Positions 6,947 to 51,885 of a stretch of 58,584 bases of DNA are shown here, piece by piece. Source of the DNA: Nitrosomonadales bacterium. GTDB taxonomy: Bacteria; Pseudomonadota; Gammaproteobacteria; Burkholderiales; Gallionellaceae. How positions within the stretch are numbered: the stretch's first letter is position 1; every line of letters starts with the position of its first letter. Location of the stretch: the NCBI GenBank assembly GCA_016213335.1, contig JACRAQ010000058.1, positions 1-58,584 on the forward strand. Direction: 5' to 3'. A program made the translations under genes and the position numbers. Below the pieces are notes generated by a model. It was not told the DNA's origin. It did no database searches and saw only the letters and a list, made by a program, of their open reading frames with translations.

Positions 6947-7501
6947 CTATTCCCAGCACATGCGGGCGAGTTGCGGCAAGTAGGCGGACAGGCCGGCAAC
7001 GTCGAATTCGGCTTGTACCGGCGGGCTGTTGAAGGGGGTAAACTGGATGACAAATTTTTGCGATCCGGCCAGCTGCTTGACCAGCAAAGTAGAATCCCGC
7101 GCCGAGGCGCCGATCGCCGCATTGGTGACTTCCTGCCAGCGCTGGGGGACAGGTTTCCCGCCGTCAAACTGGACGCGCACGATTTGCTTGTCAACCTGGG
7201 TGACCTCCAGCGGCAGCCAGGTTTCGACATAAACAGCAGCTTTCTTCTTGCCGCACTCGATGGTCAAGGTAGGCACCGCTGATTTCATCCAGCCCTTTAC
7301 CTCTTTTTCTGCCTTGAGCGACATGGACAGGGATTCTTCGCCAGCGGCAGGCGACACTTGCCATTTGCCAGGCGATAGGGGCGGTGCTGTTGCGCTGGCT
7401 GCATGGGCGGCGTAAGCGCAAAACAACAGGAAAGCGCATACGCGGGAGCCAGGGTTTGCGGGAGCTGTTTGGTGGGGGCGCTGCGGGATAGGGGGGTGCA
7501 T
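6947..7501 (-). CDS. Exported VasI-like protein (type VI secretion-associated family)
   Basis: A 184-residue protein similar in layout to the VasI/EvfG family: a signal-type segment (about residues 20-36, VCAFLLFCAYAAHA), a predicted beta-rich domain with LTIECGKKKAAVYVE, a tract with W and charged residues (PQRWQEVTN), and the C-terminal KFVIQFTPFNSPPVQAEFDVAGL..ARMCW. The paired cysteines in IEC and MCW are typical of the family. Family members often lie in type VI secretion clusters, but no such genes are nearby, so this is an orphan. The assignment is from motif resemblance, and the start codon is uncertain because the N-terminus is proline-rich. Confidence 0.6.
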   Translation of the reverse strand: MHPPIPQRPHQTAPANPGSRVCAFLLFCAYAAHAASATAPPLSPGKWQVSPAAGEESLSMSLKAEKEVKGWMKSAVPTLTIECGKKKAAVYVETWLPLEVTQVDKQIVRVQFDGGKPVPQRWQEVTNAAIGASARDSTLLVKQLAGSQKFVIQFTPFNSPPVQAEFDVAGLSAYLPQLARMCWE

Positions 7502-14848: not shown

Positions 14849-14887
14849 CTTTTCTCCCGCAAAGGGGGAAGGGCCTTGGGGAGGGGG
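14849..14887. repeat. CTCTCC..GGGGGA..GGGG repeat between flhG and fliA
   Basis: The sequence TTTTCTCCCGCAAAGGGGGA, followed by AGGGCCTTGGGGAGGGGG, is a copy of the same kind of G/C-rich repeat found inside bioA (51031-51069). It fills most of the 101-base gap between flhG and fliA. Confidence 0.55.
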
Positions 14888-50532: not shown

Positions 50533-51885
50533 TCAAACAAGACGTTCGATGATCGCCAGCATACGCTCGACCAGCATATCCATTTCCGCGTCGCCGATGA
50601 CATAAGGCGGCATGAAGTAAACGGTTTTGCCGATCGGGCGCAGCAGCAGTTCCCGTTCCAGCCCAAGCATGAAGCAGCGCTGGGCAAAATCGCCATGCGG
50701 GCTGTCCACCTCAAACGCCCAGATCATGCCGGTATTGCGGAAGTGGCGCACTTTGGGGTGGCCGGCCAGCGGACCGGCGATGCGGTTGAAGCGGGCAACT
50801 TTGCTGCGGTTGGCGTCCAGCACCCCATCCTGCGCGAAAATGTCCAGCGTGGCCAGGGCAGCGCGGCAGGCCAGCGGGTTACCGCTGTATGAATGCGAGT
50901 GCAGGAAGCCGCGCGCCATTTCGTCGGCATAGAACGCGCGATAAATATTATCCGTGCTCATCACCAGCGACAGCGGAAGATAGCCGCCGCTGATGCCTTT
51001 GGACAGGCACAGAAAATCCGGTGTGATTCCCGAGCCCCTCTCCTCACGGGGGAGGGGTTGGGGTGGGGGAGCCTGCTCGCAGGCAAACATGGTTCCGGTG
51101 CGTCCCATGCCCACCGCAATTTCATCGGCGATCAGGTGTACCCCGTAGCGGTCGCACAGCGCGCGCGCGCGCTGCAGGTAAACCGGGTGGTACATCGCCA
51201 TGCCCGCCGCACCCTGCACCAGCGGCTCCACGATGAAAGCCGCGAGGCTGGCGTGATGTTGCTGCAAATGAGCTTCCAGCCGCTCCGCACAGCGCAGCGC
51301 AAAATCCCGCGCGCTTTCCCCTTGCGCTGCATGGCGCCAGTCCGGGCTGGGCACGGTGGCCTGGCGCTTCAGCAGCGCGCCGTAAGCCTCGCGGAACAGC
51401 GCCACATCGGTGACCGACAACGCCCCCAGGGTTTCCCCGTGATAGCTGTTTTGCAGGCTGATAAAGCCATTTTTGCCCGGCTTGCCTTCGTTGCGCCAGT
51501 AGTGAGCGCTCATTTTTAGCGCGATCTCGATAGCCGAAGCGCCGTCCGAAGCGAAAAAGCAGTGGCCCAGTCCGGCGGGCGCCAGCTGGGCCAGCCGCTC
51601 GGACAATTGCACTGCCGGTTCATGGGTGAAGCCCGCCAGCATCACGTGCTCCAGCTTGCCGAGCTGGTCGGCGATCGCCGCGTTGATGCGCGGGTTGCAG
51701 TGCCCGAACAGGTTGACCCACCACGAGCTCACCGCATCCAGGTAGCGCCTGCCGTCGAAATCGTACAGCCACGCGCCCTCGCCGCGTGCGATCGGCACCA
51801 GCGACAGCGCTTCGTGGCGCTTCATCTGCGTGCAGGGGTGCCAGACGGCGGCGCGGGAACGGGCGAGCAAATCGGAGTTGGGCAT
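50533..51885 (-). CDS. bioA: BioA, adenosylmethionine-8-amino-7-oxononanoate aminotransferase
   Basis: A 450-residue PLP-dependent enzyme of biotin synthesis, converting KAPA to DAPA with S-adenosylmethionine as amino donor. Conserved features: WHPCTQM near residue 15, DAVSSWWVNLFGHCNP, the phosphate-binding DGASAIEIALKM, DEIAVGMGRTG and the PLP lysine K296 in LCLSKGISGGYLPLS. Residues 273-285 (PPPQPLPREERGS) are an insertion encoded by a palindromic repeat just before the ITPDFLCLSKG block. No other bio gene is next to it. The frame is intact, so the enzyme is probably active. Confidence 0.95.
   Translation of the reverse strand: MPNSDLLARSRAAVWHPCTQMKRHEALSLVPIARGEGAWLYDFDGRRYLDAVSSWWVNLFGHCNPRINAAIADQLGKLEHVMLAGFTHEPAVQLSERLAQLAPAGLGHCFFASDGASAIEIALKMSAHYWRNEGKPGKNGFISLQNSYHGETLGALSVTDVALFREAYGALLKRQATVPSPDWRHAAQGESARDFALRCAERLEAHLQQHHASLAAFIVEPLVQGAAGMAMYHPVYLQRARALCDRYGVHLIADEIAVGMGRTGTMFACEQAPPPQPLPREERGSGITPDFLCLSKGISGGYLPLSLVMSTDNIYRAFYADEMARGFLHSHSYSGNPLACRAALATLDIFAQDGVLDANRSKVARFNRIAGPLAGHPKVRHFRNTGMIWAFEVDSPHGDFAQRCFMLGLERELLLRPIGKTVYFMPPYVIGDAEMDMLVERMLAIIERLV
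51031..51069. repeat. In-frame CTCTCC..GGGGGA..GGGG repeat inside bioA
   Basis: A 39-base insert whose core CCCCTCTCCTCACGGGGGAG is followed by GGGTTGGGGTGGGGG. It matches the type of repeat at 14849-14887. The length is a multiple of three and adds 13 residues to BioA without a stop codon. Confidence 0.75.

Follow-up and report, generated by a model that had tools for sequence, protein, structure and literature searches.

The window analysed here, a stretch of 58,584 nucleotides, carries an intact bioA gene on the reverse strand (50533-51885), which encodes adenosylmethionine-8-amino-7-oxononanoate aminotransferase, a protein of 450 amino acids that reads from ATG to stop and consists of one Aminotran_3 domain (Pfam, residues 25-445). 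Residues 273-285 of this protein, PPPQPLPREERGS, are encoded by a 39-bp repeat insert on the same strand (51031-51069), which is recognised in the translation, in alignments and by a repeat profile. Two parts of the insert can be distinguished on the coding strand: a C-rich tail, CCCCCACCCCAA, which is unpaired in folding (51058-51069, reverse strand), and a palindromic core, CCCCTCCCCCGTGAGGAGAGGGG, recognised by sequence, pattern search and folding (51035-51057, reverse strand). The same order of tail and core is seen again in other copies in the window's genome. The preliminary description had placed the insert in frame within bioA, free of stops and 11 residues before the PLP lysine, and the translation bears this out; by alignment to solved BioA, the codon of Lys296, the PLP lysine of BioA, occupies 50998-51000 (reverse strand), 11 residues after the insert. 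The gap that had been anticipated in related proteins is also found: in the two best-matching solved BioA structures (3dod and 6wnn) 13 residues are missing exactly at the insert position, and empty relatives, including G014 of the same genus, lack the insert residues. In an AlphaFold2 model of the monomer, based on an alignment of 45 BioA proteins (mean pLDDT 80.5), the insert is predicted to form a loop that follows a short helix (268-271) and precedes a strand (291-294), with pLDDT below 50 at residues 279-284. A Foldseek search with this model ranks BioA structures first (3du4, TM 0.85).

The gene is intact and under purifying selection. Its dN/dS, calculated against four relatives, is 0.22 for the same-genus G014 and 0.12 for three other genera, and the bioA genes in seven tested pairs are still under purifying selection. 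The idea that bioA might be inactive and replaced is not favoured by a BioA search of the window's genome, in which the only matches besides BioA itself are two weaker ones, of 34% and 30% identity.

The insert belongs to a multi-copy family, since a 141-base query has 22 matches in the window's genome at E up to 0.001, itself included, and a local search finds further copies near those matches. The pattern CCCCTCNCC-N4-GGGGGAGGGG with up to three mismatches occurs at one place in the window, on both strands, which is the BioA insert; two matches were reached in 0/100 shuffles. A profile built from 25 copies in the rest of the genome recovers the insert (E 9.9e-8, 28.5 bits), with the reservation that the BioA stretch itself had initially served to find these copies and the profile is not fully independent. 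The hairpin of the BioA copy is modest (z -1.37, with 22/200 shuffles folding equally well), and it is the similarity among many copies, not the folding, that makes the case for a repeat; the paired insert in the BioA of L144 folds with z -4.49. The preliminary description had proposed a search for other copies inside genes. In the window's genome, 22 of the 27 examined copies or candidate copies keep the frame of the gene that holds them, and these 15 genes all have Pfam domains, namely HrpA (five copies), AcrB, MetG, CysS (two copies), CoaBC, acyl-CoA dehydrogenase, aminotransferase and others; systematic comparison with empty orthologues was made for BioA alone. Some copies are close to the ends of proteins (CysS residues 9-20; glycosyltransferase residues 427-438 of 467), and a different start or end would leave such a copy outside the protein. 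The remaining five could be assigned to no Pfam-bearing gene. One of these, 14849-14887, had been described as the same repeat type, which is unsupported: it has no profile match at E up to 10 and its folding equals that of shuffles (hairpin z -0.01).

Searches for BioA covered 150 genomes of the family, and 149 of these gave a match at E up to 0.001; 139 loci were read (11/150 genomes are without a usable match) and 137 rows were scored on both sides, L147 and L148 being dropped because one side is missing. An alignment of 12 BioA proteins names Gallionella, Sideroxydans, Sideroxyarcus, Candidatus Nitrotoga and further Gallionellaceae as relatives, and the surveyed family is therefore probably Gallionellaceae. 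In 54/137 BioA genes there are 7-37 extra residues, in frame and stop-free, at the same codon boundary, between FACEQA and (G)I-x-PDF. When BioA was scanned for internal insertions of 5 aa or more, these 54 were found and two others away from the site, one of 5 aa and one of 6 aa, so the site is an insertion hotspot and the window's insert is not a lone case. The inserts comprise several unrelated sequences: the window carries PPPQPLPREERGS and G143 carries PPPQPLPRGERGY, an inverted pair of repeats of 32-34 residues is present in G145, G061, G125, G095 and G026, PSPACGRG-type inserts are found in G088 and G045, PPFxKGG-type inserts are found in G058 and G089, and some inserts of 7-16 residues are now without repeat likeness. 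Two genomes of different genera (L058 and L070; g15 and g2) have similar 26-residue inserts of the GNQLGLPASGEAAVALSPSGGKLERG type, which hardly match the DUF559 loci considered below.

The window's genome contains a single match to DUF559 (PF04480), a PD-(D/E)XK or Vsr-like domain for which a structure deposited as 'Endonuclease-Like Protein' is a solved match (3hrl, E 1.7e-29). It is located in frame inside HrpA (L278/L003, contig C86, about 7137-7454), the open frame being 1571 aa long, and copies of the repeat bracket it. In the coordinates of L278, where DUF559 spans 1501-1818, the window's BioA insert matches 1363-1399 and 1459-1492 on one side and 1878-1914 on the other, with up to 54.5 bits. 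At 32 bits or more this insert matches 2/31 DUF559 loci, its own L278 and, weakly, L284, and 1/65 control loci; the wider link to DUF559 rests on the other BioA inserts.

DUF559 is present in 104/150 family genomes, and the loci tested were the best-scoring 30, one per genome and not a random sample, together with the window genome's own. Taken together, 55 BioA inserts match (at least 32 bits) the 310-bp flanks of 30/31 of these loci, with both flanks matched at 27/31, compared with 1/31 when the same loci are read 900 bp away. Taken one by one, 20/55 inserts match at least one whole DUF559 locus at this threshold, and ten of them each match 25-30 of the 31 loci and at most 2/65 control loci. 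The other 35/55 match no DUF559 locus at 32 bits, and many of these are decayed or of other origin, such as PPFxKGG (L143) and EKSLSRD (genus g9). Matches to at least one control locus were obtained with 19/55 inserts, in part because bioA was incompletely masked in shortened control loci, so that the match is to bioA itself. The repeat profile from the window's genome has 32 matches in the 31 DUF559 loci (94.7 kb) and 3 in the 65 controls (195 kb); 7/32 of them fall in the genome's own DUF559 locus, which also fed the profile, and the remaining 25 are spread over 18/30 loci. DUF559 and repeat-like BioA inserts co-occur weakly (20/23 genomes with such an insert and 56/83 in the comparison have DUF559, p = 0.07), the 23 repeat-like inserts having been chosen by eye and 31 other inserted rows left out.

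The bracketing can also be detected by a test that is blind to repeat sequence, in which 250 bp upstream is compared with the reverse complement of 250 bp downstream and a score of at least 36 is counted as positive. Inverted flanking repeats are detected at 23/30 family DUF559 loci (one of the 31 was left out for too short a flank) and at 20/30 class loci, the latter being the best 30 from the 77/229 genomes with a match. At shifted positions of the family and class loci no inverted repeats are found (0/26, 0/24, 0/25 and 0/23), and the flanks of bioA give 0/122. Among ten plasmid loci, hand-picked from 25 listed of 45 records, six are positive and both shifts give 0/10. The positives are Deinococcus NC_015170.1, NZ_AP026561.1 and NZ_CP034185.1, Azospirillum lipoferum NC_016623.1, Sphingomonas NZ_CP155749.1 and Pseudanabaena NZ_AP017561.1; the loci of A. 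brasilense, Synechocystis, Shinella and Photobacterium are negative in this test. Overall, palindromes related to the window's repeat, solo or in inverted pairs, flank DUF559 at most of the family loci examined, and inverted palindromes are found around it in further families and phyla.

DUF559 can also be nested in host proteins. Of twenty loci chosen because a long open frame contains DUF559, the motif could be located by pattern in 11, and 10/11 are in frames of 838-1629 aa, some of which are cut by the locus end; the eleventh frame, L328, has 414 aa. In these ten, repeat-encoded stretches such as SPSPSGRG and PLPEGEG are seen by eye on either side of the domain. Relatives have DUF559 within HrpA at two different positions. 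Hosts were checked with Pfam for the HrpA and MetG of the window's genome and judged elsewhere from the sequence: in our reading, the host of L311 and L318 may be MetG, with the domain before its C-terminal tRNA-binding part, and the host of L309 and L319 looks like an NPPF-motif protein resembling a DNA methyltransferase. As a separate observation, in ten loci (L282, L283, L286, L289, L292-L294, L297, L299 and L306) the DUF559 unit is situated just before an apparent FtsX-type permease gene, and in L282, L283 and L293 what seems to be an incomplete duplicate of the beginning of this permease gene is located upstream of DUF559.

The reading that we consider likely from these comparisons is that the 39 bp are a non-autonomous REP-like copy, probably spread with DUF559 and now carried as a near-neutral passenger in a loop of an active BioA. 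The insert, with its C-rich tail and palindromic core, would be a solo member of a REP/REPIN-like repeat family, and the DUF559 nuclease would mobilise both its own unit and short derivatives of it; we infer that DUF559 cuts DNA and drives the spread of the repeats. Landings would be widespread, with purifying selection retaining those that keep the frame and fall where a loop or linker can take additional residues. One such tolerant place would be the loop that joins residues 272 and 286 of BioA, with the enzyme staying active.

On the other hand, DUF559 could itself be the passenger, a homing-type nuclease landing in existing clusters of palindromic repeats that spread otherwise, through slippage, recombination or an unknown transposase. 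That DUF559 so often lies between repeat pairs would be expected in this case as well, insertion sequences are reported to target REPs (PMC1525189), and 3/23 genomes with a repeat-like BioA insert have no DUF559 match. Two aspects argue against it. First, some of the inverted repeats (L338, L342, L387, L391 and L393) reach ~56-91 bp, well past the palindrome, as expected for the ends of a unit; second, the type of repeat changes with the host, being C-rich in Proteobacteria and of the CCCCCAATTC type in Pseudanabaena, and DUF559 is still bracketed. We regard homing as possible but rather unlikely.

Mobilisation by DUF559 would resemble what is known of RAYT REPtrons, which occur in Pseudomonas and E. 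coli. In both, inverted repeats bracket one small nuclease-like gene, and single or paired short derivatives are scattered through the genome; the solo tail-core insert of the window and the tail-core-spacer-core-tail pairs in other BioA genes look like single and paired REP forms. According to PMC2817692, RAYT genes are always located between two inverted REPs. The differences are that the bracketed gene here is DUF559 and not a Y1 HUH transposase, that many copies are in frame in genes, and that the nuclease domain can nest in a host protein.

It could nevertheless be that the repeats are part of REPtrons with a RAYT (Y1 tyrosine transposase) and that the link to DUF559 is incidental, the more so as PF01797 has a match in 117/150 family genomes. 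A first Y1 control (the best 8 loci, 7 scorable) probably consisted of IS200-like elements and was replaced by 20 RAYT-like loci from relatives, defined by a PF01797 match in a frame of about 230-330 aa. Own inverted flanking repeats are present at 12/20 of these, as expected of RAYTs, which indicates that the inverted-repeat test works and is in keeping with RAYT genes having repeats of their own. However, at the threshold of 32 bits a match to a BioA insert is found at 0/20 RAYT-like loci, compared with 30/31 DUF559 loci, and this speaks against a RAYT origin of the CCCTCTCCC-type repeat. Moreover, the window's genome (a MAG, 92.7% complete) has no PF01797 match. A RAYT as the partner of the BioA repeats is thus hardly probable.

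Palindromes within genes are described in PMC3733652 for Rickettsia, O. terrae, Thauera and others; tRNA synthetases and genes of DNA repair are among those affected, and in recB the REPs of two Xanthomonas species, X. campestris and X. oryzae, are reported there at about the same site. The Rickettsia palindromic elements (RPE) are short palindromic repeats located, like the BioA repeat, in frame within conserved genes. Unlike RPE and the other in-gene REPs, the repeats here fill one codon boundary in 54/137 genomes and accompany an endonuclease gene; in addition, a GTAG or CGTC tag is not evident in the BioA repeat, and inspection of the window's insert found no GTAG at either end. CGTC-tagged REPs (RPE-4, RPE-6 and dRS3) seem to lack a dedicated transposase according to PMC3733652, which leaves their means of spread open. 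Like the DUF559-linked repeats, they are palindromic, often paired and sometimes located in genes. A CGTC-REP-like string, (C/T)GTCATTCCC, occurs at 2/71 DUF559 loci and at 6/65 control loci, making DUF559 an unlikely partner of CGTC REPs; this candidate pairing is unsupported. A guessed CGTC-REP pattern, CATTGCGAG, was uninformative.

A limited search, mostly of titles and abstract openings, found no published link between DUF559 and palindromic repeats; in-gene palindromes and RAYT-REP units are already known. A broader proposal, on which our judgement is evenly balanced, is that DUF559 may be the mobiliser that has been missing for a second class of REP/REPIN-like repeats, independent of RAYT and present in Proteobacteria, Deinococcota and Cyanobacteria, which would colonise genes in frame, would sometimes plant the nuclease in a host protein and, with other repeats, would have filled the BioA loop of Gallionellaceae some two dozen times. 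Many bacterial palindromic repeats have no known means of spread, and the repeats that consistently flank this small nuclease gene in several phyla offer a testable candidate for another class.

The number of arrivals at the BioA loop was approached with a tree of 145 insert-free BioA sequences (the 137 rows and eight outgroup rows, including L239), obtained by a quick search with no mixture model. Fitch parsimony requires at least 24 changes of insert state on this tree, or 25 gains if inserts are never lost, whereas 500 label shuffles average 44 changes and never need fewer than 34; changes fewer than in any shuffle indicate that inheritance plays a part. Sister genomes can differ all the same: the window's genome is filled and G014 is empty, and sisters can carry unrelated inserts. 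Similar inserts appear to have arrived separately or late, since pS inside them is lower than in their 80-codon flanks (type A, 0.30 versus 0.56 and 0.49; type B, 0.16 versus 0.47 and 0.36; four sequences each). As several unrelated sequences share the site, we think that the hotspot arises through tolerance of the loop and not through choice of a DNA target. Counting against mobilisation, no clear target-site duplication was seen by eye at the BioA and HrpA junctions.

The preliminary description saw in the insert a DNA repeat becoming part of an enzyme. The in-frame insertion in an intact BioA stands, but the wording overstates the case, for in four insert groups pN/pS is 0.35-0.78, compared with 0.08-0.15 in the flanking 80 codons, and an insert that changes faster than the surrounding enzyme is more in line with a passenger that is tolerated than with a function that was gained. 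In favour of a functional loop, gained and kept by selection on BioA, is the 11-residue insert of genus g9, which is kept in 11 genomes under moderate constraint (pN/pS 0.35). The three other groups have pN/pS of 0.55-0.78 with flanks of 0.10-0.15, sisters can hold unrelated sequences at the site, and G014 lacks the insert and four further residues, which makes a functional loop very improbable. An assembly or binning artefact at a G/C-rich repeat is barely conceivable: the genome is a draft of 144 contigs and many of the relatives in named records are also MAGs, but in-frame, stop-free inserts occur at one codon boundary in 54 assemblies, and named records, for example L168 (Sideroxydans STB_72) and L174, have them as well. 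With dozens of inserts of 7 to 37 residues, the loop amounts to a natural experiment in insert tolerance near the active-site lysine.

The locus of G014 (L011), the closest genome, deserves a separate remark. The four residues missing at the hotspot correspond to codons next to residue 271, and their loss is perhaps the scar of an imprecise excision. In Sulfuricella sp. T08 (L190, 1501-2150), a broken partial copy of the bioA start is situated upstream of the intact gene.

The BioA loop accepts inserts in other families too. Among ~58 BioA rows from other families (a scan of 60 rows that includes the family members L240 and L251, with a few genomes possibly in two collections) there is one insert of at least 7 residues, FPSPQPLSRGERGLIPPLPRAGEGLGERGSTK in L239 of family f15. 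Six order-level BioA genes, picked for long matches and hence uninformative on frequency, have 7-32 extra residues in the same place: L272, which is the gene of L239, and L273-L277, also from other families, with 7-26. In L273 and L274, both of family f43, the insert reads (R/P)SPGPAGHPL followed by PEGAGN or AVGEGN, which has a repeat-like look.
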